Source: Clostridium sp. (GTDB taxonomy: Bacteria; Bacteroidota; Bacteroidia; Bacteroidales; Muribaculaceae). From it: 32,720 nt of DNA. The stretch spans positions 1-32,720 of the forward strand of contig JAMPBQ010000016.1 in NCBI GenBank assembly GCA_023666615.1, written 5' to 3'. The translations under genes and the position numbers were made by a program. Positions 623 through 25,409 of the stretch are shown one piece after another; within the stretch, counting starts at the first letter, position 1, and every line of letters starts with the position of its first letter. A model generated the notes under the pieces. The model was not told where the DNA came from and searched no databases. It saw only the letters and a list, made by a program, of their open reading frames with translations.

Positions 623-721
623 CACGGCGAAGCCGTGATTCTATTGTTAACCCCGGGAGGGCGGCTTTCCGCCCTCCCGGGGCCTCCTCAAAATCAAAAA
701 AAACGCACGGCGAAGCCGTGC
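623..721 (+). repeat. Compound three-hairpin repeat, copy A
   Basis: Three hairpins stand in a row. The first is CACGGC-GAA-GCCGTG (623-637). The second is a 14-bp G+C-rich perfect stem with loop CTTT (651-682). The third is GCACGGC-GAA-GCCGTGC (705-721). The linker ATTGTTAAC precedes the central hairpin and an A-rich linker follows it. Three related copies with different stem sequences occur at 4943-5026, 6550-6648 and 25317-25409. Confidence 0.8.
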
Positions 722-759
722 CTCCCGCCCATTCCCGCAAAAAATTTTCCGATTTTTTG

Positions 760-790
760 TTGCAAATCCGCGTCACGCCCGTTATCTTTG
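760..790 (+). promoter_or_regulatory. Promoter of the ECF sigma operon
   Basis: TTG at 760-762 is followed by 20 bases and TATCTTTG at 783-790, matching the Bacteroidetes consensus. Transcription would begin near 796-798. An ATG lies at 796, right at that point, so the next in-frame ATG at 841 is the more natural translation start. Confidence 0.65.
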
Positions 791-840
791 CGTAAATGTG
801 CCAAAAACTCGTGAAACAAGCCATCCTCACATCAACCTTT

Positions 841-1311
841 ATGCGCTTCCGCGACAGGCTGCGCCATGTGGCATTCGGCATCGTCGGCAATAGCGACGAC
901 GCCGAAGATGCGCTTCACGACGCTTTTTGCCGCCTCTGGAGCCGCCATCCCGACATAGCGGACGAAACCTCTGCCCTAAAGCTAAGCTTCACCGCCGTGC
1001 GAAACTCCGCCATCGACACCCTGCGCCGCTCCAAATCTTTATCCGAAGCCGCCTCAGAGGCCTCCCTGCTCAACGGCGGCGATGACGGCGACGAGGATTC
1101 CTCCCTGCAAACCTACAGCGCCGTGCTCGCCCTGAGCAAAAGGGCCCTCAAGCCGCTGCAATACGAAATATTCCGCCTTCACGACGTTGAAGGCATCCCC
1201 TATCCCGAAGTCGCCGAAAAGATGGGCTTGACCCAGGAGCACGTCAGAGTCACCCTCAGCCGCGCCCGAAAAACGATTCGCGACCTCTACCGCAAACAAT
1301 CTGAATATTAG
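841..1311 (+). CDS. ECF-type RNA polymerase sigma factor
   Basis: This is a small sigma-70 family factor that should direct core RNA polymerase to a limited regulon. Region 2 is visible right after the chosen start (MRFRDRLRHVAFGIVG, then DAEDALHDAFCRLW). A short variable linker follows, and then region 4 (LKPLQYEIFRLHDVEGIPY, EVAEKMGLTQEHVRVTLSRARKTIR), a helix-turn-helix for -35-type recognition. There is no region 3, as usual for ECF factors. The frame is open from an ATG at 796, but that codon sits at the predicted transcription start, so I use the ATG at 841 (156 residues). It is followed four bases later by a membrane protein that looks like its anti-sigma factor. The family is certain; the regulon is unknown. 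Confidence 0.9.
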   Translation: MRFRDRLRHVAFGIVGNSDDAEDALHDAFCRLWSRHPDIADETSALKLSFTAVRNSAIDTLRRSKSLSEAASEASLLNGGDDGDEDSSLQTYSAVLALSKRALKPLQYEIFRLHDVEGIPYPEVAEKMGLTQEHVRVTLSRARKTIRDLYRKQSEY

Positions 1312-1315
1312 CCTT

Positions 1316-1789
1316 ATGAACAATTCCAGCATCCAACTCCGCGATTTGCTCGCTGAAATAGACAGCTTCTTTGAATGCCGGCTCTCCGACGAGCGGGAAA
1401 ACTCCCTGCGCGCCGAACTCGCCCGCTCCCCCTTTTCCCATCCCGCCATCGATGAGGCTAGGGCCGTCATGGGCATAAGGCGCCCCCATGTTTTGCCCAA
1501 ATGCCGCCGCCATCATCTCAGCGGCTTCGCAAAATTCAGCGTCGCCGCATCATTGGCGCTGGTCGCCGCCATGGCGTTTTTCAATTTGCGCCCCGCCGAC
1601 AGCCACGCTTGCTTTGCCTACGCCAACGGCCTGCGCATCACCGATGAAGACGCCGTCCTTGAGCTAATAGCCCAAAACGCCTCCGAATTCCAAGAGGAAA
1701 TGGGGCTCGCCCAGCAATCGGTTTTTGACGACATTGCCCCCATCGCCGACTTCGTCTATGAGCACGACTATGAATACAGCCCATTCTAA
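1316..1789 (+). CDS. Putative anti-sigma factor, single-pass membrane protein
   Basis: This 157-residue protein starts four bases after the sigma gene stop. Residues 1-65 are charged and mostly helical in character (LRDLLAEIDSFFECRL, ERENSLRAEL). One transmembrane helix follows at about 70-90 (FAKFSVAASLALVAAMAFFNL), and then an acidic C-terminal part of about 65 residues. A cytosolic N-domain, one helix and an outer domain directly behind an ECF sigma gene is the usual layout of an anti-sigma factor. There is no recognisable zinc-binding anti-sigma motif (HxxxCxxC), so the role is inferred from topology and position. The acidic tail (DAVLELIAQNASEFQEEMGL) could be a signal-sensing domain facing the periplasm. 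Confidence 0.65.
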   Translation: MNNSSIQLRDLLAEIDSFFECRLSDERENSLRAELARSPFSHPAIDEARAVMGIRRPHVLPKCRRHHLSGFAKFSVAASLALVAAMAFFNLRPADSHACFAYANGLRITDEDAVLELIAQNASEFQEEMGLAQQSVFDDIAPIADFVYEHDYEYSPF

Positions 1790-1808
1790 CCTCTCCAACA
1801 TGCATAAT

Positions 1809-2285
1809 ATGAAAAATCTCGCCATCTCCATCCTCTTTTGGCTTGCCGCATCGCTTTTGGCCCTCGCCCAAGAGCCCCTCCAAATCTCAAAAATATTCAA
1901 TGGAAAGTACGCAAGCGACCCCGCAGTCACAGAGACAATGATCAGCGGCAGCAATGAATTCCTCTACAAGCACAATCTTACCCTTTTATCCACCTTCAAA
2001 GCCCCGGCCGATAAGTACGCCGCCATAATTGAGCCCCTCGTTCTCAAAGACGCCGACAAGACCATCGGAAAAAACATCTCATACAAGAAAGGTATTCTTC
2101 ATTACGCATTCTTCATGCTTAAGCCCGCCGATAATGCAAGAGGCCGAAAGATAAATCGATTCCTTTACTATATCAACAATCAGCCTCAAGGAGGCAAAAA
2201 CATAATGGTCCTCTACTTCGAGGGCTCCCTTGGACAAAACGGCGCCAACTCGCTGATAAAGTCAATGTCGAAGAAAATAAAATAA
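1809..2285 (+). CDS. DUF6108 family secreted protein
   Basis: A 158-residue protein with an N-terminal signal peptide (MKNLAISILFWLAASLLALAQ, cleavage probably after ALA-Q). The start of the mature part (LQISKIFNGKYASDPAVTET) and the rest match my memory of the Bacteroidetes DUF6108 family, commonly found behind ECF sigma/anti-sigma pairs. Function is unknown; the location is periplasm or outer membrane. The frame is open upstream to 1725, inside the anti-sigma gene, but the ATG at 1809 (or 1800) places the signal peptide at the N-terminus, so I chose 1809. It is 19 bases behind the anti-sigma stop and 26 bases before the next gene, which supports one transcript. Confidence 0.75.
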   Translation: MKNLAISILFWLAASLLALAQEPLQISKIFNGKYASDPAVTETMISGSNEFLYKHNLTLLSTFKAPADKYAAIIEPLVLKDADKTIGKNISYKKGILHYAFFMLKPADNARGRKINRFLYYINNQPQGGKNIMVLYFEGSLGQNGANSLIKSMSKKIK

Positions 2286-2311
2286 ACGCAATTAATCCCC
2301 CCCAAAAAAAC

Positions 2312-3334
2312 ATGACACGTTTCTTAACTATAATCCCGGCCATTTTCGCCGCAATGTCGGCCCTTGCCTCCAGCCCCGCATCTTCCGACACACTGCTGCT
2401 TACCCCTGACGCAAAGTCAATCTACATCCAGTCCAACAAGAAGGCCACGTCAGTCACCGTAAGGAGAATAGGAGGCACCTCCGACAATTTCTTCTACGAA
2501 GCCGGCACCTCATCGCGCGTCTCCGCCCCCGACCAAAGCATCATCAGCTATGACAACGTTAAAAATGTATTGGTGGTCGAGTCCGAATCCAAAACGCTGA
2601 ACGTGAGCTTCAGCGCCCAAAACAACGATGAAATCTCATACTCATTCACCCTCCCTGACCTCGAAAACAGATTCGTCAACACCTATATCGGGCGGAATGG
2701 CTCTGATTTCGGAATCACAATCAAAAGGGCCGGACGCACCACGTGGGACCTCATTTCCGGCGGTTGGGGATTTGGATGGGTCGCCCCAATCGCCGACGAA
2801 CCGTCCTTGGACGCAAACATGTGGAAGAGCAACGAACTCACATGGGCCATCGTCCTTGGCGTAAAAATGTCGCGCGGCCGTCACTCGCTTGCCGCCGGAC
2901 TCGGCATCGACTGGCGAAATTACGTCACAAAGGGAAATCGATATTTCCACAAAGACGATGAAGGCCGCATCTCCCTTATGCCCTACGACCCCGATTCCCG
3001 CAAGCACAGATCGCGCATCAAGACGTTCTCCCTGCAAGTCCCCCTCATTTATGGCATATCATTCGGCCACAACGGGAATTGCCATTTCAACCTTGGCCCA
3101 ATCCTATGCTTCAACACCAGCGCCGGCATCAAAACTCAGTATTCCATTGGCTCCCGCGACTATTCCATAAAGACCCACAACATCCGCCAGCGTCCGGTCA
3201 CAGTCGACCTTTTCGGCGAATTCCAATTCAAGTCCGTTGGCCTCTACGTCCGCTACTCCCCAATGGAAATCCTAAAGACATCCGCCGGCCTAAGCTTCAA
3301 ATCCCTCTCCACCGGCATCATGATCGGCATATAG
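2312..3334 (+). CDS. Outer-membrane beta-barrel protein, hypothetical
   Basis: A 340-residue protein with a signal peptide (MTRFLTIIPAIFAAMSALAS). Residues about 25-125 form a Ser/Thr-rich domain with alternating beta-type pattern. From about residue 150 there are alternating hydrophobic and aromatic stretches typical of an 8-10-strand barrel (WAIVLGVKMSRGRHSLAAGL, LGPILCFNTSAGI, VGLYVRYSPMEIL). It ends STGIMIGI, a weak barrel-type terminus. It is the last gene of the ECF sigma operon, 26 bases after the DUF6108 gene, so it is probably an envelope protein co-regulated with that sigma system. It may be a structural target or a sensor input. I do not recognise a specific family beyond outer-membrane beta-barrel. 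Confidence 0.6.
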   Translation: MTRFLTIIPAIFAAMSALASSPASSDTLLLTPDAKSIYIQSNKKATSVTVRRIGGTSDNFFYEAGTSSRVSAPDQSIISYDNVKNVLVVESESKTLNVSFSAQNNDEISYSFTLPDLENRFVNTYIGRNGSDFGITIKRAGRTTWDLISGGWGFGWVAPIADEPSLDANMWKSNELTWAIVLGVKMSRGRHSLAAGLGIDWRNYVTKGNRYFHKDDEGRISLMPYDPDSRKHRSRIKTFSLQVPLIYGISFGHNGNCHFNLGPILCFNTSAGIKTQYSIGSRDYSIKTHNIRQRPVTVDLFGEFQFKSVGLYVRYSPMEILKTSAGLSFKSLSTGIMIGI

Positions 3335-3391
3335 CCCCCCAAAAATTTATGAATAAGGGGGAACGCCCCCAAACCCGCCCCCATCCCCCTG

Positions 3392-3485
3392 TTTCGTCAA
3401 GTGCGCGAGCTTGCTCGCCCCGCGCCGAAGCTGTGTCTCCCCCCCATCCCCCCATGTTTCGTTGAGTGCGCGAGCTCCGCTCGCC
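3392..3485 (+). repeat. Two GCGAGC-hairpin elements
   Basis: Copies lie at 3392-3419 (stem GCGAGC, loop TT, GCTCGC) and 3457-3485 (stem GCGAGC, loop TCC, GCTCGC), both on the plus strand between two plus-strand genes. The loop differs between the copies while the stem is kept. The gap 3335-3547 contains nothing else recognisable except a weak promoter. Confidence 0.75.
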
Positions 3486-3507
3486 CCGCACACTCCCTTT
3501 CCGAAAA

Positions 3508-3539
3508 TTTGGTGGTTAAAAATATTTTCAGGATATTTG
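3508..3539 (+). promoter_or_regulatory. Weak promoter candidate for apbE
   Basis: TTTG (3508-3511), 20 bases, then GATATTTG (3532-3539), one mismatch from TAnnTTTG. Only eight bases separate the box from the ATG at 3548, so either the leader is almost absent or translation begins at the Met codon at 3566. Confidence 0.4.
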
Positions 3540-3547
3540 CCAAAAAT

Positions 3548-4546
3548 ATGAAACCCAACACCCATATGCGACTGCCAATATTCGCCATCCTTTGCGCCAT
3601 CCTCCTATCATGCTCCGCCCCGGAATTCAGATACGCAAAAGGCGCCACATGGGGCACCACCTACAGCATAATATACAAATCCCCGCGCAGCCTTGACGAC
3701 TCCATAATCGCCGTCATGCGCCGCGTCGACCTATCCCTCTCCCCCTTCGAGAAAAACTCGCAGGTCAGCATGCTCAACGCCAACCTCCCCGTAGTGGCTG
3801 ACCCTATGCTACGCGACGTCCTGGCCCTCTCAAAAGAAGTCTGCTCCATCAGCGGCGGAGCATTCGACCCCACTGTCGCCCCGCTCGTCAACCTATGGGG
3901 ATTTGGATACCGCCCCGCCGACGCGCCGCGCCCATCACCCCAGGACATCGACTCCGCCCTGCGCCACGTAGGCATAATGGATTGCGGCATAAACCCCGAC
4001 GGATCAGTATACAAAAAATCCCCCTCAACCGAATTCAACTTCTCCGCAATAGCCAAAGGCTACGGCGTCGACGCAATTGCCGCCATGCTCCGCCGAAACG
4101 GATGCTCCGACTTCATGGTCGAGGTCGGCGGAGAAATAGCCCTCGCCGGCAAAAGCCCGCGAGGCGAAGATTGGCGCATACAGATCGACGCCCCCGTGCC
4201 CGACTCCCTTTCCCTGCGCCACGAGCGCCTCACCGTCCTGCAACTCACCGACAAATGCGTCGCCACATCCGGCAACTACCGAAACTTCAAAACCATAGGC
4301 GACACCGTCGTCGGCCACACCATCAGCCCCGTCACAGGCCGGCCAATAGCTTCCGACATCCTCAGCGCCACAGTCATAGCCCCTTCCGCGGCCCTGGCCG
4401 ACGCCCTGGCCACAGCATCAATGGCAATGCCCCTCCCCGACGCCCGACAAATGCTCGCCTCCCTCCCCTCCATTCAAGCCATCCTCGTAACCCCCGACTC
4501 CATCATCCCCCTCAACAATCCCCCTCAATCCCCACAATCCCGCTGA
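3548..4546 (+). CDS. apbE: FAD:protein FMN transferase, lipoprotein
   Basis: ApbE proteins use FAD to attach FMN covalently to a Ser/Thr of partner subunits such as those of the Na+-pumping NQR and RNF complexes, on the periplasmic face. A lipoprotein signal is visible (AILCAILLSC, lipidated Cys22). Family motifs follow: GATWGTTY near the mature N-terminus, GGAFDPTVAPLVNLWGFG, FSAIAKGYGVD, a VEVGGEIA segment, CVATSGNYRNF, and HTISPVTGRP, the metal/FAD-binding HxxxPxTG motif. The length of about 332 residues is normal. The frame is open upstream to 3401 but that part only translates repeat DNA; the ATG at 3548, or 3566 just before the hydrophobic core, is the credible start. Its flavoprotein target is not in the window. 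It appears to be a single-gene transcript. Confidence 0.92.
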   Translation: MKPNTHMRLPIFAILCAILLSCSAPEFRYAKGATWGTTYSIIYKSPRSLDDSIIAVMRRVDLSLSPFEKNSQVSMLNANLPVVADPMLRDVLALSKEVCSISGGAFDPTVAPLVNLWGFGYRPADAPRPSPQDIDSALRHVGIMDCGINPDGSVYKKSPSTEFNFSAIAKGYGVDAIAAMLRRNGCSDFMVEVGGEIALAGKSPRGEDWRIQIDAPVPDSLSLRHERLTVLQLTDKCVATSGNYRNFKTIGDTVVGHTISPVTGRPIASDILSATVIAPSAALADALATASMAMPLPDARQMLASLPSIQAILVTPDSIIPLNNPPQSPQSR

Positions 4547-4600
4547 AAACCCATCCTCAATCCACAATCCACCGCGCGCCCAAGCCCCAATCCACCCTGT

Positions 4601-4794
4601 TTCGTTGGGTGAGCGAGCTTGCTCGCGCCCCCTCAAATCCGCCAAATCAAAAATTTTCGTTGGGTGAGCGAGCTTGCTCGCTCACCCTCAAATCCGCCAA
4701 ATCAAAAATTTTCGTTGGGTGAGTGAGCTTGCTCGCGTCGCCTCAAATCCGCCAAATCAAAAATTTTCGTTGAGTTAGCGAGCTCTGCTCGCCA
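4601..4794 (+). repeat. 55-bp tandem array built on the GCGAGC-hairpin element
   Basis: Three units of exactly 55 bp start at 4601, 4656 and 4711, and a fourth, truncated unit starts at 4766. Each unit begins TTCGTTGGGTGAGCGAGCTT, contains the GCGAGC-TT-GCTCGC hairpin and ends CCTCAAATCCGCCAAATCAA-AAATT. Unit 3 has a base change in the left arm (GTGAGC), and unit 4 reverts to the GTTAGCGAGCTCTGCTCGCC form. A single related unit occurs at 29996-30050. There is no open reading frame of interest. Confidence 0.9.
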
Positions 4795-4797
4795 AAA

Positions 4798-4926
4798 GCG
4801 CGGCAAAGCCCCGCCTCCATCCCAGGCCTGTTTCGTTGCGTGTGCGAGCTCCGCTCGCCATCCGTTAATTCCAGCCCGCGCGGGTTTGTGACCCGCGCGT
4901 CTCGCCTATTTCGTTGAGTTAGCGGT
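4798..4926 (+). repeat. Mixed hairpin repeats downstream of the 55-bp array
   Basis: An imperfect GCGCGGC-AAA-GCCCCGC hairpin (4798-4814) is followed by a GCGAGC-TCC-GCTCGC element (4831-4859). Next comes a 9-bp perfect stem CGCGCGGGT-TTGTG-ACCCGCGCG (4877-4899), then a truncated element TTTCGTTGAGTTAGCG (4909-4924) that breaks off before its hairpin and runs into the next repeat type. The gene-free stretch 4547-5269 is almost entirely such elements. Confidence 0.7.
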
Positions 4927-4942
4927 ATTGAAAAACCAAGTA

Positions 4943-5026
4943 AAAGCCTCGTAGAGGCTTTATTGTGATTAACCCCAGGCGAAGCCTGGGGTTTCTGACA
5001 ATCAAAAACATAAGCCTCGTAGAGGC
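4943..5026 (+). repeat. Compound three-hairpin repeat, copy B
   Basis: AAAGCCTC-GTA-GAGGCTTT (4943-4961), linker ending GTGATTAAC, AACCCCAGGC-GAA-GCCTGGGGTT (4971-4993), A-rich linker, then GCCTC-GTA-GAGGC (5014-5026). The two outer hairpins have the same stem and loop as each other, but differ from the outer stems of copies A, C and D. Confidence 0.8.
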
Positions 5027-5143
5027 GCCGTTGTGGTAACAGCTTTTGTCCATCCCTTTGCAGTTTTTCAACACCTTCCATTCATTATTTCGTTATCCCG
5101 AAGAAAAAAATCCCCCCCCCCAAAAAAAATTTCCTTCAAAAAA

Positions 5144-5175
5144 TTTGGTTTATAAAATAAACCGCATTATCTTTG
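5144..5175 (+). promoter_or_regulatory. Promoter of the membrane protein/regulator operon
   Basis: TTTG at 5144-5147, 20 bases, TATCTTTG at 5168-5175. This matches the Bacteroidetes consensus and gives a leader of roughly 88 nt before the ATG at 5270. The first palindrome (5147-5163) overlaps the -33 element and fills the spacer. Confidence 0.75.
5147..5163. promoter_or_regulatory. Candidate operator 1
   Basis: Perfect inverted repeat GGTTTAT-AAA-ATAAACC inside the promoter spacer. A protein bound here would occlude RNA polymerase. The same 7-bp arms recur at 5226-5242. The obvious candidate ligand is the winged-helix regulator encoded by the second gene of the operon. Confidence 0.6.
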
Positions 5176-5225
5176 CAACCGTAAAAGGGCGGCAGCGCGC
5201 ATCCGCCCTTTTCAAAAACAATTCA

Positions 5226-5242
5226 GGTTTATATAATAAACC
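5226..5242. promoter_or_regulatory. Candidate operator 2
   Basis: Perfect inverted repeat GGTTTAT-ATA-ATAAACC in the transcribed leader, centred 79 bp downstream of operator 1. The arms are identical to operator 1 and only the middle base of the 3-bp centre differs; both are followed by CG. Confidence 0.6.
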
Positions 5243-5269
5243 GTTTTACAAACAACAAACTCCCGTTTT

Positions 5270-5902
5270 ATGGAAGACAAAAAACTCACCCCACAAGAGA
5301 GCATGGAGCTCATCGCATCCATGATCCAAAACACAAAGCGCAGAGTCGCATCTCCCAACCTCCACATCTCAATAATGTGGGCGGCCCTAACTATCGCCAC
5401 CGCCGCAGCCGCTTGGATCCTTCTCTCAACAACCCACAACCCCTACTTCAACTTCGTATGGTTTGCCATCCCGGTAATCGGCATTCCCGCAAACATCATC
5501 CTCGCAAACAAAAATCGCGAAAAGACAATCGCGAAGACATACCTCGACAAAGTGCGCGAAGGCCTGTGGAAAATCGTCGGCTGCATAGCCATCGGCCTGA
5601 CAATCGGATGCTTCATCGCCCAGCAATGCGGATATCCCCAGGCATGGCTAGCCATGTTCTTCTTCGCCTTCATAATCGTTGGATTTGCCGCAGCCGCAAA
5701 TGGCCTCCTCCTTAATGAAAGCTCATACGTGTTTGGCGGCATATTCTCTATCTTTTCAGGCTTCGCCGTAATCATATGTAGCCTCTGCCAAATCCCCCTG
5801 CTGTATTCTTGGGTGGCGCCCCTCTACATCCTCTGCTTCCTGCTGATGTTCATCATCCCGGCATTCATTGTGTCACGAAAGATTAAAGCCCAGAAAAAAT
5901 GA
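5270..5902 (+). CDS. Multi-pass membrane protein of unknown function
   Basis: A 210-residue protein with a charged N-terminus (MEDKKLTPQESMELIASMI) and about six predicted transmembrane helices: near residues 32-53, 60-80, 102-120, 126-146, 152-172 and 178-200. It ends in a Lys-rich tail (SRKIKAQKK). I recognise no catalytic motif. It is translationally coupled to the next gene: its TGA overlaps the regulator's ATG as ATGA. Membrane proteins paired with small winged-helix regulators are common in Bacteroidetes and usually of unknown function, so the pairing suggests that the regulator controls this gene. The start is set by the ATG at 5270 behind a leader bearing a candidate operator. Confidence 0.75.
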   Translation: MEDKKLTPQESMELIASMIQNTKRRVASPNLHISIMWAALTIATAAAAWILLSTTHNPYFNFVWFAIPVIGIPANIILANKNREKTIAKTYLDKVREGLWKIVGCIAIGLTIGCFIAQQCGYPQAWLAMFFFAFIIVGFAAAANGLLLNESSYVFGGIFSIFSGFAVIICSLCQIPLLYSWVAPLYILCFLLMFIIPAFIVSRKIKAQKK

Positions 5903-6180
5903 AAGAACTTGATCCGCTCTTGCATTCGCAGCTGCGTCTTGCCATAATGTCAATCCTTATGAATATTGACGAGGCGGATTTTGTTTACCTCAAAGAGAAA
6001 ACCGAGGCTACCGCCGGAAATCTTAGCGTACAGCTCGACAAGCTCGCCAATTCCGGATACATCAAAATCCAAAAAGGATTCATTGGCAAAAAGACAAGAA
6101 CAACCTGCCAAATCACCCCGCAAGGCCGCGACGCCTTCGAGCAATACGTCCAAGCCCTCAAAGAATACCTAAACCTCTGA
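5899..6180 (+). CDS. Winged-helix transcriptional regulator
   Basis: A 93-residue, single-domain DNA-binding protein. The pattern LLHSQLRLAIMSILM..., DFVYLKEKTEATAGNLSVQLDKLANSGYIKIQKGF, then GKKTRTTCQITPQGRDAFEQY is a MarR/ArsR-like winged helix. Its recognition helix is GNLSVQLDKLANSGYI, followed by the beta-wing and the ITPxGRxAF signature of the short transcriptional regulator group often annotated as HTH_34. It has no ligand domain. It overlaps the upstream membrane-protein gene by four bases and is followed by a strong terminator, so the two form a closed bicistron. The paired palindromes at the promoter suggest autorepression by a dimer; this is inferred, not shown. Confidence 0.85.
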   Translation: MKELDPLLHSQLRLAIMSILMNIDEADFVYLKEKTEATAGNLSVQLDKLANSGYIKIQKGFIGKKTRTTCQITPQGRDAFEQYVQALKEYLNL

Positions 6181-6210
6181 CCACCCTCCTCGAATGCGGA
6201 GACAAACACC

Positions 6211-6267
6211 ACACATTGCTTCCATTGCCAATCAAAAATTGGCAATGGAAACAATGTGTATCGTTTT
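6211..6267 (+). terminator. Strong intrinsic terminator of the 5270-6180 operon
   Basis: A 22-bp inverted repeat (6211-6232 with 6238-6259, one mismatch) closes a CAAAA loop and is followed by ATCGTTTTT. It begins 31 bases after the regulator stop codon. Confidence 0.8.
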
Positions 6268-6300
6268 TCCTTTCCACTCTACCCACCCTAATACCCCCCA

Positions 6301-6386
6301 TATTGAATAAAAAACCTCTTTTTTATTCAATACAACACAATTACTGAACAAAAATCTCACAATTTGGCAATTTCCCGCAAAATGCT
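6301..6386. repeat. Left copy of an 85-bp direct repeat with A/T palindrome
   Basis: TATTGAATAAAAAA-CCTC-TTTTTTATTCAATA is a 14-bp perfect stem (6301-6332). About 50 more bases follow that recur nearly unchanged at 9000-9050 (ACAACRCAATTAYTGAAC, TCTCACAATTTGG). The right copy is at 8966-9051. Together the copies bracket the AT-rich gene segment 6767-8432. The palindrome could also work as a bidirectional terminator. Confidence 0.75.
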
Positions 6387-6428
6387 CGCCTCCTCCCCCC
6401 CGTCCAACCCCTCTCCCCATCACGCTTG

Positions 6429-6457
6429 TTTCGTTGAGTTAGCGAGCTCCGCTCGCC
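6429..6457 (+). repeat. GCGAGC-hairpin element
   Basis: A full-length copy (TTTCGTTGAGTTAGCGAGC-TCC-GCTCGCC) in the convergent gap 6181-6766. It is followed by ATTCGTTATTTCGTTA and CATCCCGAAGA, which resemble the sequence at 5085-5105. It lies on the plus strand. Confidence 0.8.
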
Positions 6458-6549
6458 ATTCGTTATTTCGTTACCCCTTTACTCCGTCATCCCGAAGAGA
6501 AAATCCATGAAATCCGTGCAATCCTGACTCTTCCCAAACCCCTCAAAAC

Positions 6550-6648
6550 CACCGCAAAGTGGTGCCTCCATAGTTAACCGAGTGTTGATTCGCGCGCGAA
6601 TCAACACCCGGCATTCAATCAGCCCCCCCAAAACACTGCGAAACAGTG
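6550..6648 (+). repeat. Compound three-hairpin repeat, copy C
   Basis: CACCGC-AAA-GTGGTG (6550-6564, one G-T pair), linker CCTCCATAGTTAAC, 12-bp perfect stem GTGTTGATTCGC-GC-GCGAATCAACAC (6582-6607), A-rich linker, CACTG-CGAAA-CAGTG (6634-6648) followed by CCTCC. It has the same order and linkers as copies A and D, with quite different stem sequences. Confidence 0.8.
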
Positions 6649-6705
6649 CCTCCCTCTTCACATTACAACCCTCCCAACCAGTTACAAATATATATATTTA
6701 TACTC

Positions 6706-6738
6706 GTAGAGTCACCGTTGTGGTCACGGTGACTCTAC
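6706..6738. repeat. 13-bp-stem hairpin related to copy B
   Basis: Perfect stem GTAGAGTCACCGT / ACGGTGACTCTAC with loop TGTGGTC. The string CGTAGAG..CCGTTGTGGT is shared with the tail of copy B at 5018-5037. It lies 29 bases downstream of the BspA-like gene stop on the minus strand and may act as its transcript end, though no clear T-run follows. Confidence 0.6.
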
Positions 6739-6766
6739 ATCCTATTCGCGAGTCTTTCAACCCACT

Positions 6767-7867
6767 CTAATTAACTAAAATTTTATGTGCTTTCCCATTT
6801 CGCCGAACTATATATATGCCTCCCGCAAGATTTTCATCTTTCAATTTTCGACCATAGCAGTCAAAAACTTCAATAGACGCATCTCTGTCAAACAAAATTT
6901 CATTCACGCCGTTATAATTCATTTCTCTAAAATCCCAAAAAATATCCCAACGAGTTCTGTAATTATCAAGACATCCCATAGGCACATACACTATAGTGTC
7001 AAAAGCCGTGTCGTAAAAAACCATATGGCCTATTCCTGGTGGAACCTTACAATATGAATAAATTGTTTTGAGAGATGAACAACAGGCAAAGGCAAAATCT
7101 CCAATGCCTACAATTGTTTCAGGAAATTTCACGCGTTTCAAATTTGTACAGCGCTCAAATGCGGAACGGTCTACCGTTTTAAAGTTATTGGGCAATATTG
7201 CTTCTTCCAGTTCATAACAATTTGCAAATGCATACTCCTCAATATGTTCAAGATTGTAGGGAAAGTCTATAGACTTCAATTCATAACACTCCTTAAACGC
7301 ACAATAGCTTATTGACGTAATAGATGATCCCAATTTAACTGATTTCAGACTAACACAGTTGAAAAATGTATACGGACTAATAGATGTCAGAGAGTTGCCT
7401 ATTACAACATTAGTCAGCTTAGAGCAATCTGCAAAAGCTGATACCCCAACTTCTGTGACCGAATTGGGTATAATTACATCTGTGAGTGAATTGCATTCAC
7501 AAAATGCATGATGTCCAATTGTTATTATTGAATTGGGAAATTCAATGCTCTCCAATAAAGAACTGCCGCTGAATCCATAATCGCCAATTGAAATCACAGT
7601 ATATTCCGAATCCCCGTCATTTACTTTTGAGGGTATGACAACTGATCCCGAAATTTTTTCCACCGCTGGAATGCTCCCATAACTTTTAGTGCCTACTGTC
7701 TTTGCTTCTTCATCAATAACAGTATAAGTTATGGAATGCCCCTGATAACTATAAGAAAATTCGTACGCATTAGCCAATGTAGACGCATTAAATAAAAAAA
7801 CACAAATAATTATGCCGGTCACACCTATGCTTTGTAGAAATGACGCCTGTATAAATTTCCTACACAT
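6767..7867 (-). CDS. BspA-like leucine-rich-repeat secreted protein
   Basis: A 366-residue secreted protein. A signal segment (about residues 12-34, ending ANAYEF) is followed by a short beta domain and about eight 23-residue BspA/LRR_5 repeats of the form (SLTDVIIPNSVTEVGVSAFADC). Aromatic and Cys residues close each repeat. The C-terminal 40 residues (SIEVFDCYGRKLKDENLAGG, then IYIVRRNGKAHKILVN) look like the Bacteroidetes C-terminal sorting-type tail. Such repeats usually mediate adhesion or protein binding. The gene is clearly AT-richer than the rest of the window: 20 of 60 bases are G/C at 7261-7320, against 38 of 60 at 12001-12060. This points to recent acquisition. It starts 10 bases after the upstream gene's stop, so the two are probably co-transcribed leftward. 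Confidence 0.85.
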   Translation of the reverse strand: MCRKFIQASFLQSIGVTGIIICVFLFNASTLANAYEFSYSYQGHSITYTVIDEEAKTVGTKSYGSIPAVEKISGSVVIPSKVNDGDSEYTVISIGDYGFSGSSLLESIEFPNSIITIGHHAFCECNSLTDVIIPNSVTEVGVSAFADCSKLTNVVIGNSLTSISPYTFFNCVSLKSVKLGSSITSISYCAFKECYELKSIDFPYNLEHIEEYAFANCYELEEAILPNNFKTVDRSAFERCTNLKRVKFPETIVGIGDFAFACCSSLKTIYSYCKVPPGIGHMVFYDTAFDTIVYVPMGCLDNYRTRWDIFWDFREMNYNGVNEILFDRDASIEVFDCYGRKLKDENLAGGIYIVRRNGKAHKILVN

Positions 7868-18400: not shown

Positions 18401-18408
18401 CCTCGCCG

Positions 18409-20242: not shown

Positions 20243-20273
20243 CAAAGTTACTACATTTCCGTGAATCCACAAA
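20243..20273 (-). promoter_or_regulatory. Promoter of the SulP gene
   Basis: On the minus strand TTTTG-type -33 (20270-20273), 19 bases, TAACTTTG (20243-20250). The leader to the ATG at 20157 is about 80 nt. Confidence 0.7.
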
Positions 20274-20316
20274 ATCCACCCCATTTCCTCGCGCCCGCTC
20301 ACCCCATCCCCTCCTG

Positions 20317-20482
20317 TTTCGTTGAGTGCGCGAGCTCCGCTCGCCCCATTCGATATTACGATATTTCGATATTACGATATAACGATATTTCGATATAACG
20401 ATATTACGATATAACGATATTACGATTATAACGATAAATCGATAAATCATTATTGCCACATCCCATCATAGCGCCAGCCCGC
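20317..20482 (+). repeat. Composite repeat upstream of rpoD: hairpin element plus CGATATWW microsatellite
   Basis: A GCGAGC-TCC-GCTCGC element (20317-20345) is followed by CCATT and nine exact 8-bp units CGATATTA/CGATATTT/CGATATAA (20351-20422). Degenerate CGATAAAT units follow, then a tail (TATTGCCACATCCCATCATA-GCGCCAGCCC). The same composite, with fewer units, lies after rpoD at 21603-21718. The gene-free stretch 20158-20638 holds this, another hairpin element and two promoters. Confidence 0.85.
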
Positions 20483-20490
20483 CCCCCTTG

Positions 20491-20519
20491 TTTCGTTGAG
20501 TTAGCGAGCTCCGCTCGCT
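20491..20519 (+). repeat. GCGAGC-hairpin element
   Basis: Full copy (TTTCGTTGAGTTAGCGAGC-TCC-GCTCGC) just after the composite repeat, on the plus strand, 120 bases before rpoD. Confidence 0.8.
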
Positions 20520-20575
20520 AAAACAGCAAACATTAGCTAAATCCGCCCCCGCCAGCACAACATTCCCCCAAAAAA

Positions 20576-20607
20576 TTTCGTTATTTCATCCAAATATACT
20601 AACTTTG
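20576..20607 (+). promoter_or_regulatory. Promoter of rpoD
   Basis: TAACTTTG at 20600-20607, with TTTCG (20576-20580) 19 bases upstream as a one-mismatch -33 element. The leader to the ATG at 20639 is about 25 nt. Confidence 0.65.
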
Positions 20608-20638
20608 CCAACTAATAGGCACATTATATACCAGAGAA

Positions 20639-21499
20639 ATGAGACAACTCAAAATCACTAAATCTATCACCAACCGCGAAAGCGCGTCCCTCGACAAATA
20701 CCTTCAGGAAATCGGCCGTGAGGAATTGATTTCCGTAGAAGAAGAGGTAGAGCTCGCCCAGCGCATACGCCAAGGCGACCGTCAGGCGCTCGACAAGCTT
20801 ACTCGCGCCAACCTCCGCTTCGTGGTATCGGTGGCTAAGCAGTATCAGAACCAGGGACTGTCTCTCCCCGACCTCATCAACGAAGGAAACGTCGGCCTCA
20901 TCAAGGCCGCACAAAAGTTCGATGAGACGCGTGGCTTCAAATTCATCTCTTACGCCGTTTGGTGGATCCGCCAATCAATTCTTCAGGCTCTCGCCGAGCA
21001 GTCAAGAATCGTACGCCTTCCCCTTAACCAAGTCGGTTCTCTCAACAAAATCAGCAAGGCTCTCTCTAAATTCGAGCAGGAGAACGAACGCAGGCCATCT
21101 CCGGAAGAACTCGCCAACACGCTCGACGTCCCAGTTGAGAAAATCGCCGACACCCTTAAGGTCTCCGGCCGCCACATCTCCGTCGACGCGCCGTTCGTAG
21201 AAGGCGAAGACAACAGCCTCCTTGACGTCCTCACAAACGACGACTCGCCAATGGCAGACGCCACCCTCACACAAGAGTCTCTCTCAAAAGAAATCGACCG
21301 CGCCCTCAAGCAGCTCCACGAGCGTGAGCGCGAAATCCTAAAAATGTTCTTCGGCATCGGATGCCAAGAAATGACTCTCGAAGAAATCGGCGCCAAATTC
21401 GACCTCACGCGCGAGCGCGTTCGTCAAATAAAGGAAAAAGCCATCCGCCGTCTTAAAGGCCAAAAGAGCAAGCTCCTAAAGACATACCTGGCATCATAA
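20639..21499 (+). CDS. rpoD: Primary (housekeeping) RNA polymerase sigma factor
   Basis: The main sigma-70 factor; in Bacteroidetes it recognises the TTG/TAnnTTTG promoters seen throughout this window. The protein is short (286 residues) with no long region 1.1. It begins [20 protein letters not shown] and [12 protein letters not shown] (region 1.2). Region 2 follows ([40 protein letters not shown]), then region 3 ([20 protein letters not shown]) and region 4 ([29 protein letters not shown]). This length and order are typical of Bacteroidetes RpoD. It is transcribed alone, ends at a good terminator, and sits between two composite repeats in direct orientation. Confidence 0.97.
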
Positions 21500-21523
21500 C
21501 CCATCCCCAATACCCACTCCACC

Positions 21524-21551
21524 GCCCCGCGACCCCATCGCGGGGCTTTTT
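21524..21551 (+). terminator. rpoD terminator
   Basis: GCCCCGCGA-CCCCA-TCGCGGGGC followed by TTTTT, starting 25 bases after the rpoD stop. Confidence 0.85.
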
Positions 21552-21562
21552 CATCCCCCCCT

Positions 21563-21718
21563 GTTTCGTTGAGTGTGCGAGCTCTGCTCGCCCATCCCCC
21601 TGTTTCGTCGAGTTAGCGAGCTCCGCTCGCCCCATTCGATATTTCGATATAACGATATTTCGATATAACGATAAATCGATAAATCGTTATTGCGACATCT
21701 CGTCATAGCAGCAGCCCC
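21563..21718 (+). repeat. Composite repeat downstream of rpoD
   Basis: A GCGAGC-TCT-GCTCGC element (21563-21592) is followed by a second (21603-21631) that continues into CCATT, four CGATATTT/CGATATAA units (21637-21668), two CGATAAAT units and a TATTGCGACATCTCGTCATA tail ending at 21718. From 21603 it is a shortened copy of 20317-20482. Confidence 0.85.
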
Positions 21719-21725
21719 CATACTA

Positions 21726-21757
21726 AAAAAAAAGAGAGGCCAAAGCCTCTCTTTTTT
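21726..21757. terminator. Bidirectional terminator between rpoD and the DUF5723 gene
   Basis: AAAAAAGAGAGGC-CAAA-GCCTCTCTTTTTT: a 13-bp perfect stem with A- and T-runs on both sides. It lies 14 bases beyond the minus-strand stop at 21772. Confidence 0.85.
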
Positions 21758-21771
21758 AATGCTCCCATCAA

Positions 21772-23145
21772 TCAGAACGGGAAGTTGATGCCCATATTCA
21801 AATTCATGTTCGAATTAAGCGGCACGCCCTGCTTCGCCAGCTTCCCCGGCGTATGGTCGCTGGCCACAAACAAATTAAACCCGGGCGCCTTCAGATTGAC
21901 AATCCAGCCAAACGAGAACCCGAACGTGCCCATGCCCACATTCGCCCCAAACGACAGCACCTTCACCGGCTCCACATTCGCCGACAGTCTGAACTCTGTC
22001 CACGTAAACGGCCCATTGAAGCATGTCGTATTCAGCAAACCAAACTTTGCCTTCCTGTACACCGGCAGCGTATACTGCGCTGCCACGTTCATCGTCGCCG
22101 CCAGCGTAGTCTTGCGGCTTCCTGTCTCGCCAAGGTCCTCCAGCTGATACAGGTCCGACAGATTGTCAACAAACTTATCCCAGCTGTCGTTATTGTCCAC
22201 ATTGAACGCAAAGCTGTTCGTGCTCACGCTCTGCAGGCCGCGGCTCGACGCTATCCGCCCCTCGCTCCATGAAATGAAGCCCAGGTCAAGCAGCGATGCC
22301 GAAAATTCCCAATCCTTATTAAAGGTGTACACCGCGCCGAGGTCAACTGCCACGCCATAGCCGTTTACAGGGGAGAAATCATCCACCTCAACCCCGCTCA
22401 CGTAGCGGCGCTTCGTGTCATTGTTCCAGCTCGTCTCATAGCGCAGGCCCTTCACGTAGCCATAGATGTCCGCGTCTACGTTGCCTATCCACTGGTCCTC
22501 CCTCAGCTGTAGATTAGCCGCCTTGATGTCTGTCTCCACCGAGGCCACGCCCATCAGGAATTTCAGATTGGCGCCTATGCGCAGCTTGTCGTTGATCTTG
22601 TGCGAATGGCCCAGCGAAAGCTCCGCCCAGCCCATGCCGCGCGCCAGTGTGTTCGACAGGTCATAAGTGCTGTTGCCCAAGCCCTCTTTCGCCAGCCGGA
22701 AAATATCCCCGGGAAGCGACATGCCCACATTGGCGCGACCGCTTATGCTGAAGGTGTTGTAGCCGCCCATCCCGCTGAAGCCAAATGCCAGCACTGTCTC
22801 CCGAAGGCTCACCCCAAGGCGATTCTTGTCCTTGATGTTGCTCATCGCCTCCGCCGCGCTGATGTTCGGGTTCAGAAGCGTCGTCGTCTTCCCGTTGATA
22901 TTGTAGAATATGTTGTCAAGCCCAAGAGTGCCGTTGGTCCCCAAATTCAGGTTGCCAAGGCCGGGCATCGCCACAAAGCCATGCCCCTCGTTCCCGAAGG
23001 CCGGGTTGGCCTGAAACCTGTACAGGTAATTGTCGTCAAAATATCCCGACTGCAGATTCTGCGCGCCGGCGGCTAGCGGAAGCGCTGCAGCCAATGCCGC
23101 TGCGCCCCATCGAGCCATTCGTCTAATATTTAATTTTAAATTCAT
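21772..23145 (-). CDS. DUF5723 family outer-membrane protein
   Basis: A 457-residue protein with a signal peptide (MARWGAAALAAALPLAAGAQ). The mature part begins LQSGYFDDNYLYRFQANPAF and is followed by alternating beta-strand stretches of an outer-membrane barrel (GFSGMGGYNTFSISGRANVG, FGANVGMGTFGFSFGW), ending GINFPF, a barrel-type C-terminal aromatic. This matches the Bacteroidetes DUF5723 family; function is unknown. The longer frame begins with TTG; the ATG at 23145 gives MNLKLNIRRMARWG and a good signal peptide. It is 109 bases downstream of a lipoprotein gene on the same strand, with a 7-bp hairpin (23227-23245) between them, so the pair is probably co-transcribed. Confidence 0.8.
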   Translation of the reverse strand: MNLKLNIRRMARWGAAALAAALPLAAGAQNLQSGYFDDNYLYRFQANPAFGNEGHGFVAMPGLGNLNLGTNGTLGLDNIFYNINGKTTTLLNPNISAAEAMSNIKDKNRLGVSLRETVLAFGFSGMGGYNTFSISGRANVGMSLPGDIFRLAKEGLGNSTYDLSNTLARGMGWAELSLGHSHKINDKLRIGANLKFLMGVASVETDIKAANLQLREDQWIGNVDADIYGYVKGLRYETSWNNDTKRRYVSGVEVDDFSPVNGYGVAVDLGAVYTFNKDWEFSASLLDLGFISWSEGRIASSRGLQSVSTNSFAFNVDNNDSWDKFVDNLSDLYQLEDLGETGSRKTTLAATMNVAAQYTLPVYRKAKFGLLNTTCFNGPFTWTEFRLSANVEPVKVLSFGANVGMGTFGFSFGWIVNLKAPGFNLFVASDHTPGKLAKQGVPLNSNMNLNMGINFPF

Positions 23146-23254
23146 CTCAATCAAATTAAAAATTTCCTTTATCCATCATCCTTTACACTTAATCCTTAGC
23201 GCCAGCCAAGGATGTGCTGTCCTGTGTTTCGGCCACATGCCGAAATCAAAGCCC

Positions 23255-25042
23255 TTAAAGCTCATCTGCGTAATATCCGGATACTGTGGCCCTGATTCCG
23301 GTCAGCGTTATCGTCGCGTCAGGCCTAAGCACTATGCCCTCCTTGCTCACATACGCCTTGGCATAATAATAAATGCCGTCCACATCGCTCACAGTCCCTG
23401 AGCACTCTATCGAAATCGGCGCCGTTGTCCCCGCAGGTATCTTCGTGGCCGTAAACTTCACAAGCTGCCCGGTCTTCTTGTCCTTGCACTGATTCCCGTT
23501 GGAATCAACCGGATAGCCGCTAAGCTCTATGTCAAATGGCAGAATATTGCTCACCGTGGCCTGCACGCCAAGCTTCTCCACCGTTATCTTGTCCATCGTA
23601 TCGTCTGCCCAGCCGGCCTCGTCGCCTTCATAAATTATGGTCGAGCCCTCGCCAAGGTCCAGCGGCGCGTAGAAGCAGTATGTGCCCTTCACCTTGCTCA
23701 GATCCTGTGGCAGAGCGAAGCCGCGCACCATCCCGGGGCCTACATGCGGATTCTCAAACTCCACCTCGATCGAGTTTGGCAGGCCATCGCCGCCCACTAC
23801 ATCCCTGAGCTTGTCATAGCCCACATGTTCGGCGCCGTCATAGCCTTCTATCGCGCTCTGCGCCGGCGTATCGTCAGGCGACAGGCAGAAATTGTACGGC
23901 CCGGCCTCGCCCTTGTTCGATCCAATCTCTATCAAAGAGCCGCTGTTAAGCCCAAACGGTTCGCGCCCATTGTCCCTGCATGCCACAAGGGTAAGGCCGC
24001 TGCTCGCCTTTAGGCCAAAGCCGGCCATAGGATTGTTGATCGACAGATACAGCCGCGGATGGGCTATCGTGATGTTTGTCCCTTCCTCGCGCATAAAGTC
24101 GGGTAGGTCGTTCAGCGTAATGGGGTCAACCCCAAAATCGTCTATGCCGTAGCGAATCTCGCCGTCAACGCTCTTCACCTCAATCGCCGACCCCTTCGGG
24201 CTGAGCGTCAGCGAGGTCTTTGCCGGCACGCTCGAAATTGTCGAATAGGTCTCTGCCACTACGTAGCCTCCGCCTATGCCGATGCTGCCGTCGATCTCAA
24301 GCATTCCCGCAGCGTTTTCCTTCGCCGTAAATCTGAATTTGTCTCCCATGCGGGCTACATCGATTTCATCCACTGCCAGCACAAGCGTGTAGTCGGCCTT
24401 TCCGTTCTCTAGCCTGATGTCGCCCAGGCTGATCGTGCCGTCCACGTTCTCTACGCCTGATGTGTGCAGTCCGGCAGGAATCTCAAGCTTCATATCATGA
24501 AGCACGATGGTCTTAAACACCTTGCTGGTGTTGTCGATCTTCAGCGCAATCTCAAGCGTCCACTCAACGCCGATCTTCTCCAACGAGCGGATGCTCTTGT
24601 CCACTCCGTCAGTCTTATACGTGAACGATGTGCTGGTGCTTTCCACCTCATAGCGGAAAACCTGCGATCCTATGTTGATCGACGGTATGTCAAGGCCGCC
24701 AAGGCCGCTGCCCAGTAGGTTCACTGTGGTCGTGGTTGCCGGAATCTCCGGCTTGCCAAGGCTTACCGCAGCCACCTTGATCTCCTTCGATTCAAAATCG
24801 CCATCAACCATGATGGCATACTCTCCGTCGATGTTCTTTATGGCACTCTCATCGTCCAAGTCAAAGATATTCGAGAGGGTGATGGCGTCCAGGTTCACCG
24901 GCACCACCAAGTCATCGACCCGAATCTCGACATTCGTGTCGATATCCGAAAGGTCATAATTGTCGTCTATGCATGATGGCATTAGCGTTGCCGCCATAGC
25001 CATCGCGCCAACGAGCGAAATGTGTGATAATGATTTAATCAT
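23255..25042 (-). CDS. Large surface or periplasmic lipoprotein, hypothetical
   Basis: A 595-residue lipoprotein: MIKSLSHISLVGAMAMAATL-MPSC, lipidated Cys24, followed by acidic IDDNYDLSDIDTNVEIRVDD. The Asp-rich stretch just after the Cys could serve as a surface-export signal, as in Bacteroidetes lipoproteins. The rest is beta-rich and repetitive in style (GKADYTLVLAVDEIDVARMG, IPAGTTAPISIECSGTVSD), suggesting tandem immunoglobulin-like domains, but I recognise no named family. It ends VSGYYADEL. It is the upstream partner of the DUF5723 barrel, so the two may form an outer-membrane pair. The promoter is at 25209-25238 and the leader of about 160 nt contains a GAATTATG repeat array. Confidence 0.7.
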   Translation of the reverse strand: MIKSLSHISLVGAMAMAATLMPSCIDDNYDLSDIDTNVEIRVDDLVVPVNLDAITLSNIFDLDDESAIKNIDGEYAIMVDGDFESKEIKVAAVSLGKPEIPATTTTVNLLGSGLGGLDIPSINIGSQVFRYEVESTSTSFTYKTDGVDKSIRSLEKIGVEWTLEIALKIDNTSKVFKTIVLHDMKLEIPAGLHTSGVENVDGTISLGDIRLENGKADYTLVLAVDEIDVARMGDKFRFTAKENAAGMLEIDGSIGIGGGYVVAETYSTISSVPAKTSLTLSPKGSAIEVKSVDGEIRYGIDDFGVDPITLNDLPDFMREEGTNITIAHPRLYLSINNPMAGFGLKASSGLTLVACRDNGREPFGLNSGSLIEIGSNKGEAGPYNFCLSPDDTPAQSAIEGYDGAEHVGYDKLRDVVGGDGLPNSIEVEFENPHVGPGMVRGFALPQDLSKVKGTYCFYAPLDLGEGSTIIYEGDEAGWADDTMDKITVEKLGVQATVSNILPFDIELSGYPVDSNGNQCKDKKTGQLVKFTATKIPAGTTAPISIECSGTVSDVDGIYYYAKAYVSKEGIVLRPDATITLTGIRATVSGYYADEL

Positions 25043-25100
25043 ATGGTTTATAAAAAAATTGATTTTAAATTAGCAAAAAAATCCCCTATCCCAAAGTTCT

Positions 25101-25171
25101 TAATTATGAATTATGAATTGCGAATTATGAATTGCAAATTGTGAATTATGAATTGTGAATTATGAATTGCA
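25101..25171. repeat. GAATTATG/GAATTGTG repeat array in the lipoprotein leader
   Basis: About seven imperfect units TAATTATGAATTATGAATTG, ..CGAATTATGAATTG.., CAAATTGTGAATTATGAATT. AT-rich and partly palindromic, it resembles the tract at 16190-16237. It lies between the promoter at 25209-25238 and the start codon at 25042. Confidence 0.7.
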
Positions 25172-25208
25172 ATAAGCGACACCATAGGCTTCACCTTATT
25201 TCAGGCCA

Positions 25209-25238
25209 CAAAGTTAAGCATTTTTCCCCACACCGCAA
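25209..25238 (-). promoter_or_regulatory. Promoter of the lipoprotein/DUF5723 operon
   Basis: TTG (25236-25238), 19 bases, TAACTTTG (25209-25216) on the minus strand. The block around it (GATAACG...GCTTAACTTTG) resembles the GH67 promoter region. Confidence 0.7.
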
Positions 25239-25275
25239 CGTTATCTTGAAAAAAACATCAAAAAATCCACAAAAA

Positions 25276-25409
25276 AGCGCGGCAGCGCCTCCGCGGTTAA
25301 CCGCAACCCCCATTCCCACGGCAGCGCCGTGCCTCCATTGTTAACTGCGGGTGACGCTTGCGTCACCCGCGGCCAGTCCTCAAACAAAAAAAGCACGGCA
25401 ACGCCGTGC
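25276..25409 (+). repeat. Compound three-hairpin repeat, copy D
   Basis: A leading GCGCGGCAGCGCCTCC segment and a GCGGTTAACCGC palindrome (25293-25304) come first. Then CACGGC-AGC-GCCGTG (25317-25331), linker CCTCCATTGTTAAC, 11-bp perfect stem GCGGGTGACGC-TT-GCGTCACCCGC (25347-25370), A-rich linker, and GCACGGC-AAC-GCCGTGC (25393-25409) with CCTCC after it. It is the closest relative of copy A. The orientation is plus although both neighbouring genes are on the minus strand. The gene-free stretch 25043-25573 holds this, two other repeat arrays, a promoter and a terminator. Confidence 0.8.

Follow-up and report, generated by a model that had tools for sequence, protein, structure and literature searches.

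Introduction

Two kinds of palindromic elements are known to belong to Y1 transposases, the repetitive extragenic palindromes (REPs) of the REP/RAYT systems (RAYT, REP-associated tyrosine transposase) and the hairpins at the ends of IS200/IS605 insertion sequences. The TnpA-REP enzyme of E. coli is reported to recognise and cut single-stranded REP but not inverted REP, and in one system the foot can serve as a guide (PMC8266576, in the part of the paper drawn on here). For IS200/IS605, small subterminal hairpins of approximately 20–25 nt at each end are described in the part of Quentin et al. (2018; PMC6006769) that we draw on. The same part of that paper lists TnpA-Y1 subclass 1.2, a group from Bacteroidetes with the motif Y---Q--HH, which is described as generally devoid of typical terminal IS200 structures and for which the REP column reads 'no'. 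The nearest broader survey, as far as the part drawn on here goes, deals with GTAG and CGTC REPs and with transposases flanked by terminal inverted repeats (PMC3733652). Here, we describe a compound element of three hairpins which is present in four copies in a stretch of 32,720 nt, referred to as the window, from a genome deposited as Clostridium sp. and assigned to the Muribaculaceae (Bacteroidales; contig JAMPBQ010000016.1 of assembly GCA_023666615.1), and which may be the DNA partner of subclass 1.2 enzymes.

We consider the units to be non-autonomous single-strand transposons of TnpA-Y1 subclass 1.2 (Y---Q--HH) enzymes, a reading to which we assign a probability of roughly 0.83; their binding, cutting, excision and insertion by such an enzyme are what we infer from the findings presented below.

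Results and Discussion

Two Families of Three-Hairpin Elements

The window is one contig (C7) of a draft genome of 2.87 Mb in 91 contigs, which is 94.6% complete. All four copies lie on its plus strand and consist, as originally predicted, of an outer hairpin, a linker ending in (A/G)TTAAC, a G+C-rich central hairpin, approximately 20 nt and a second outer hairpin. They had been taken for a single element; the common plan was confirmed, whereas the copies belong to two families. Family A (W1, W3 and W4) follows the plan CACGGC-gaa-GCCGTG, 8 nt, GTTAACC, a central hairpin usually starting with C..GGGT, about 20 nt, CACGGC-gaa-GCCGTG and CCTCC. W1 (623–725; 103.2 bits and E = 4.5e-20 with the covariance model R1, see below) is composed of an outer hairpin (623–637), the linker (638–645), GTTAAC (646–651), central arms at 651–664 and 669–682, the second outer hairpin (706–720) and the CCTCC tail (721–725). 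In W3 (6550–6653; 75.5 bits, E = 8.6e-14) the outer hairpin at 6550–6564 is followed by CCTCCATA (6565–6572), GTTAAC (6573–6578), the central arms (6578–6594 and 6595–6611), the outer hairpin at 6634–6648 and CCTCC (6649–6653). The corresponding parts of W4 (25317–25413; 88.8 bits, E = 8e-17) are located at 25317–25331 (outer hairpin), 25332–25339 (CCTCCATT), 25340–25345 (GTTAAC), 25347–25357 and 25360–25370 (central arms), 25394–25408 (outer hairpin) and 25409–25413 (CCTCC). Directly 5′ of W4, a possible decayed partial family-A unit (25277–25304, plus strand, ..GCGCCTCCGCGGTTAACCGC) forms a direct repeat and matches the linker with three mismatches, without an R1 match of its own.

The copy predicted at 4943–5026 represents family B. 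With its tail, W2 extends from 4943 to 5036 and follows the plan GCCTC-gta-GAGGC, ..TTGTGATTAAC, CCCCAGGC hairpin, about 20 nt, GCCTC-gta-GAGGC and, instead of CCTCC, GCCGTTGTGG. Its parts are an outer hairpin (4943–4961), TTGTGATTAAC (4963–4973), central arms at 4973–4980 and 4984–4991, a second outer hairpin (5014–5026) and the tail GCCGTTGTGG (5027–5036). W2 is of the same family as the units which flank a transposase gene on contig C59.

Copies are not confined to the window. A pattern of GTTAACC plus the central-stem framework has 14 matches in the genome and none when reversed. The covariance model R1, which was built from dispersed family-A copies and blind to transposases, gave 32 rows at E ≤ 0.01 in the genome; the last 12 are opposite-strand echoes, leaving 20 distinct family-A places. 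This type of search had been proposed as a check that could refute the prediction; the copies found keep the shared linkers and the order of the hairpins, and their stems covary. In the alignment A1, comprising 16 family-A copies aligned by sequence, 97.7% of the cells pair under the three-hairpin structure and 12 of 25 pairs have changed on both sides, although the structure was picked on A1 itself, which favours it. The covariation score of 0.350 compares to a shuffled mean of 0.085, was reached by 0 of 500 shuffles and was destroyed by sliding the pairing partners. Thus, the central stems differ in sequence and yet pair, as had been claimed.

Other details of the original prediction held only in part. 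The two outer hairpins have the identical stem in W1, W2 and W4 but not in W3 (CACCGC/CACTGC) or in several other family-A copies (e.g., CACCGC/CACGGC), so that a joint evolution of the outer stems is only partly true. The A-rich linker proved not to be general: at least five A in a row within 11 nt before the last hairpin were found in 4 of 16 copies. Both outer hairpins have a GAA or AAA loop and the direct orientation in 14 of the 16 A1 copies (hand count), the exceptions being W4 and the copy at C8:1341.

The ends of family A are sharp. On the left, the information content of the 20 copies rises from 0.07 bits in the last flanking column to 2.0 in the first element column; on the right, the last two element columns have 1.25 and 0.56 bits and the next 40 flanking columns 0.01–0.51. 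Read on the minus strand, the unit is 5′-GGAG-hairpin-about 20 nt-central hairpin-GGTTAAC, a GGAG-like foot and hairpin-3′, the second foot being variable. Minus-strand DNA folds of all four window copies are more stable than their own shuffles (z = −4.6 to −7.8). Contigs C60 and C8 each carry an inverted pair of family-A units, separated by 6 and 19 bp, respectively. In the stretch read between the copies on C60 no transposase was seen; one open reading frame (ORF) there was read as acetyltransferase-like, without a family search. A pattern TTGTTAAC...TTTTT (three matches, eight in the control) was uninformative. At the locus L069 (1317–2098), two adjacent small ORFs of 59 and 201 amino acids, in a toxin-antitoxin-like layout, lie directly behind a family-A unit that has no second outer hairpin; the larger one appears acetyltransferase-like by eye, no family search having been made.

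The core of family B has 52 matches in the genome (reversed-pattern control 0), or 48 after removal by hand of four opposite-arm echoes. Those with fetched loci were viewed as sequence. The family includes tandem arrays in which adjacent units have one outer hairpin in common, and the foot on the minus strand is of the CACAA type. The seven units of one such array (C11:1020989-1021343), each approximately 56 nt long, share one outer hairpin with their neighbours. Elsewhere (C22:60791-60915), a third subfamily combines the outer stem GCGCC-gta-GGCGC with the family-B linker. Terminal inverted repeats of the GTTGAAAA..TTTTCAAC type around family B were rejected, as only 2 of 16 copies have them on both sides.

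Y1 Transposases of the Genome

Three matches to Y1 transposases are present in the genome, namely, the gene on contig C59 (protein P0001) and two further loci, L049 and L050. The C59 transposase (147 amino acids) lies between inverted family-B units, with more copies behind the gene, and is the only match to its own sequence in the genome at a threshold of E 1e-10. Its motif YIKGQEMHH corresponds to the Y---Q--HH signature. PF01797 (Y1_Tnp) was found in 44 of 44 aligned sequences, in which H53, H55, Y113 and Q117 are invariant. The protein passes the IS200/IS605 model NF033573 (74.9 bits, cut-off 55) and fails the RAYT model NF047646 (22.4 bits, cut-off 80). A profile of the 44-sequence alignment matches the TnpA proteins of IS608 and ISDra2 in the PDB, and the predicted fold (pLDDT 96.4) likewise matches the IS608 and ISDra2 TnpA structures; the REP transposase 4er8 follows at a lower rank. 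Judged by motif, length and host range, the enzyme would belong with TnpA-Y1 subclass 1.2.

L049 (on contig C11; positions 1003–2043 of the locus, 346 amino acids) and L050 resemble REP-associated transposases and reach 47.1 and 28.1 bits, respectively, with the RAYT model. The L050 match (905–1938) consists of two overlapping ORFs of 163 and 193 amino acids, possibly a broken gene. A second palindromic repeat, GCGAGCTCCGCTCGC, occurs at 13 places between 495 and 30078 of the window, all on the plus strand (up to two mismatches; 0.14 expected), and at both ends of L049 a repeat resembling it was seen by eye (GGCGAGC..GCTCGC..CAACGAAACAG). Together with L049, the GCGAGCTCCGCTCGC-type repeat probably makes up a REP system of its own.

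Three-Hairpin Units beside Transposase Genes in Other Genomes

Relatives of P0001 were found in 70 of 149 genomes of the family. Fifty of the loci were examined, the 30 fetched with the P0001 search and 20 chosen from further rows with preference for the same genus; one locus with a short downstream flank (L116) was retained. A strict detector, which demands perfect stems and fixed spacing ranges, found a unit upstream of the gene in 20 loci, downstream in 18 and on both sides in 14, while 26 had none. In shuffled flanks the corresponding counts were 1, 0 and 0 of 480. Of 44 windows located some 1 kb upstream, 1 contained a unit. The second set, of named relatives of the C59 transposase, mostly from Muribaculaceae plus other Bacteroidales, comprised 76 loci (80 kept of 99 found, minus four with short flanks) and overlaps the first. 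By itself, the affiliation of these relatives would point to a probable Muribaculaceae host for the window. Here, the strict detector found 34 units upstream, 33 downstream and 22 on both sides, with 31 loci lacking any; all three counts were 0 of 276 in the shuffles. The best upstream unit was in plus orientation in 30 of 34 cases and the best downstream unit in minus orientation in 30 of 33. With a relaxed detector the numbers rose to 41, 45 and 32 (shuffles 1, 3 and 0 of 276; distant windows 1/64). More loci show imperfect units by eye, a count which was not blind.

The covariance model of family A points to the same genes. Of the 28 matches that R1 has at E ≤ 0.02 in the 50 loci, 25 are no more than 300 nt away from the gene; these come from 18 loci. 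The motif Y---Q--HH is conserved in 48 of the 50 loci, and in all 27 that were scored among 28 further Bacteroidales loci, which represent the best rows of a Bacteroidales-wide profile search.

Upstream and downstream units of one locus have similar stems. For 13 loci in which both units are oriented as expected, the mean identity within a locus was 0.80, compared to 0.51 between loci, and in 10 of them the upstream unit was nearest to its own downstream unit; one pair (L121) reached only 0.24. Several of these pairs differ by paired changes. The triloop of the outer hairpins at transposase loci is mostly GGA (20/37 for each hairpin), and in 20 of 37 units both hairpins have the same loop. Their 3′ tails are alike at 2.8 of 6 positions within a locus and at 2.0 between loci, a modest difference. 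Taken with its tail, each outer hairpin is thus similar to a REP on the opposite strand, on which the foot precedes the hairpin.

Strand Polarity and Proposed Mechanism

The orientation of the elements follows the local GC skew. Calculated over about 3 kb along the plus strand of the element, with the element excluded, the skew was negative in 17 of 20 family-A placements (p = 0.0026) and in 17 of 19 family-B placements (p = 0.0007; fetched loci, arrays collapsed, one match on both strands omitted). Hence, the plus strand of the element is the locally C-rich strand in 34 of 39 placements. When both inverted pairs and one array's second unit are omitted, the skew is negative in 14 of 15 family-A placements (hand count). 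On the usual reading of GC skew, the minus strand of the element, in which the foot precedes the hairpin, lies on the lagging-strand template. This template is the substrate described for IS608 and ISDra2 in the part of PMC6006769 drawn on here.

As the simplest model that fits, we propose that each copy is a non-autonomous mobile element of about 85–105 nt. A short triloop hairpin with a short conserved foot beside it forms either end, the two hairpins having the same direction and being separated by the longer central one. A Y1 HUH transposase with the Y---Q--HH motif would bind both outer hairpins when the minus strand is unpaired, for instance in the lagging-strand template, and would use the feet to choose the cut. 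The unit might then be excised as single-stranded DNA and joined elsewhere. The central hairpin presumably brings the two ends together, a role for which pairing would be kept while the sequence is free to change. A transposase gene between two inverted units would represent the autonomous member, and solo units, arrays with a common outer hairpin and inverted pairs would be its products or descendants. Whether the three-hairpin unit alone is a complete minimal single-strand transposon, moved in trans by a Y---Q--HH transposase, is a narrower claim, towards which we lean slightly.

Comparison with Known Systems

The units appear to work like REP/RAYT and IS200/IS605 systems, but they are members of neither by foot, RAYT model and end structure. 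They share with REPs and REPtrons the short palindromic form, a foot that precedes the hairpin when one of the strands is read 5′ to 3′, the many copies and the occurrence in arrays, and the dispersed family-B copies (52 core matches) together with the inverted copies flanking the C59 gene likewise recall REP/RAYT. Unlike REPs, the unit is made of three hairpins with the two outer ones in direct orientation, and a GTAG (or GT[AG]G) foot is missing, the foot being GGAG or variable in family A and of the CACAA type in family B; the enzyme falls below the RAYT cut-off and has a class 1 type Y motif with Q. BIMEs and REPINs are compound as well, consisting of two REPs and often arrayed, but their REPs are inverse, whereas here the outer hairpins are mostly direct and enclose a third one. 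The C59 enzyme, a Y1 HUH transposase by profile and fold match, resembles subclass 1.1 of IS200/IS605 (IS608, ISDra2), and the polarity fits the use of the lagging strand; the ends, by contrast, are compound and, where units were found, inverted around the gene.

The closest relation is to subclass 1.2 as characterised in the part of PMC6006769 used here, with which the enzyme shares Y---Q--HH, the length of about 147 amino acids (148 in the table of that paper) and the occurrence in Bacteroidetes. In contrast to that published description, three-hairpin units stand beside the gene in many of our loci, far above the controls. Subclass 2.6, listed there with 'atypical secondary structures', also comes from Bacteroidetes, and the non-GTAG structures close to its gene recur at other places in the genome; its Y motif is YIH[QN]NP, and its structures are not described as three-hairpin in that part of the text.

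As far as our searches went, the statement that no named family matches holds for the three-hairpin unit; its kind, palindromic elements of Y1 transposases such as REPs and IS200/IS605 ends, is known. In the openly licensed literature, excluding supplements, no paper was recognisable by title or abstract as describing three-hairpin units with this enzyme group. If the proposed reading is correct, subclass 1.2 would gain its missing DNA partner, giving a candidate substrate to a widespread transposase group for which the one classification found lists none, and the central hairpin would be a new device for pairing transposon ends. Compound palindromic mobile elements would then form a class of their own throughout Bacteroidales, separate from REPs and IS200/IS605 ends. 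The reading would also account for one group of intergenic repeats in gut Bacteroidota whose strong folding might cause them to be taken for regulatory RNAs. Many of the transposases carry their own candidate substrate, and in some cases the substrates upstream and downstream are paired variants of each other, which makes the proposal directly testable.

Alternative Explanations

Selection on RNA structure had been raised beside the possibility of a mobile non-coding element. On this view, the units would be riboregulators or leader elements, structured RNAs whose places in the genome are maintained by selection. Covarying stems would be in line with such RNAs, as would the position of the copies between longer ORFs of the window, W1 preceding an ORF read as an ECF-type sigma factor (a name based on no search). 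In the window, however, 0 Rfam matches over the gathering score were obtained, and family A is nearly absent from genomes of the same genus; because it is nearly private to this genome (matches in 7/149), a conserved RNA is unlikely. Tandem and inverted copies, an orientation that tracks the local GC skew and the same plan beside transposase genes add to this, and we regard the RNA explanation as very improbable. Still less probable are repeated intrinsic transcription terminators. On the minus strand, GTTTTTTTTG follows the last hairpin of W1 (scan of 500–6800) and a T run that of W4, but the five-A run just before the last hairpin is limited to the 4 of 16 family-A copies mentioned above, and three hairpins with a GTTAAC linker are needless for a terminator, even if some copies may still act as one.

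The units might instead be REPs of the other Y1 transposases, L049 and L050, which score higher than P0001 with the RAYT model, although all three stay below the cut-off of 80. This assignment is also very improbable: the flanks of L049 hold the different repeat described above, by eye and without the searched family-A or family-B motifs, a bare ATTAACC is the only motif match around L050, and it is the Y---Q--HH enzyme that family B flanks here and three-hairpin units flank elsewhere. Nor do we give much credit to the idea that the units beside the transposase merely reflect a clustering of mobile elements in tolerant intergenic spots. Copies of families A and B do lie near each other in places (e.g., contig C43), but clustering would hardly account for the inverted symmetry about the gene, the closeness of the units to it or the similarity of the stems upstream and downstream, and the windows 1 kb upstream in the named loci contain no units (0/64). 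This explanation, too, ranks among the least probable. A mobile non-coding element, in contrast, is supported by lineage-specific spread in many copies, sharp ends, the transposase link and strand polarity.

Several observations weigh against the reading of the units as single-strand transposons of Y---Q--HH enzymes. Three hairpins are the minimum-energy fold of the minus-strand DNA for W1 and W2 only, so two of the four window copies lack it: in W4 the two outer palindromes pair with each other, and in W3 one outer hairpin is lost. The flanks of the 20 family-A copies show no target-site consensus, comparable to the conserved target tetranucleotide next to the left end of IS200/IS605 sequences, and the family-B copies have extra conserved flanks of uncertain meaning. 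A transposase with family-A ends was not found in the 94.6% complete draft; family A may thus be an orphan, may depend on the enzyme of family B, or may have a gene of its own that is absent from the assembly. The strict detector finds no unit on at least one side in 36 of 50 and 54 of 76 loci. In other families, it found units upstream in 6, downstream in 9 and on both sides in only 1 of the 27 further loci with enough flank, so that the pattern is weaker outside Muribaculaceae by this strict measure, imperfect units being visible by eye. The polarity is derived from local skew in a draft genome; local values were used since the skew along the largest fetched contig (C11) is patchy. The exact linker pattern ATTGTGGTTAACCCC has few copies in the 149 genomes, which means that wide dispersal is evident only here and, modestly, in one other genome. 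Finally, no insertion with an empty-site counterpart was seen, and synteny around W2–W4 is lost within the genus. The proteins adjoining W2/W3 and W4 are present in 12 and 29 of 31 genus genomes, respectively, but the far-side neighbours were not detected next to them there, which made an empty-site comparison impossible.

Distribution among Relatives

A search of the 149 family genomes with R1 yielded at least 24 rows in this genome and at least 9 in 6 others; filters were stricter here and no more than 27 candidates were scored in each genome, and weak matches may be lost. Three of the 9 rows in other genomes start 312–572 nt behind a P0001-type match (G015:C32). The linker pattern ATTGTGGTTAACCCC has 13 matches in 7 of the 149 genomes, several of them adjoining a transposase. 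Of 295 sampled Bacteroidales genomes, 163 have a match to the 44-protein profile, as do 119 of 184 genera; ordinary IS200 relatives may also be caught by it.

One further genome (G368), consisting of a single contig of which 400 kb of 4.3 Mb were sampled, gave eight detector candidates compared to one in the shuffled control, several of them unlike the family. The core pattern of its transposase flanks has four matches (control 0), with negative skew in three. Two of these are located beside the two adjacent genes at 3.87 Mb, and the other two are solo copies at 645 and 647 kb, 9–11 kb from another transposase gene of the same group at 656,544.

Apart from the elements described so far, the window contains a perfect 13-bp inverted repeat at 6706–6738 (GTAGAGTCACCGT..ACGGTGACTCTAC, loop TGTGGTC), possibly another palindromic element.

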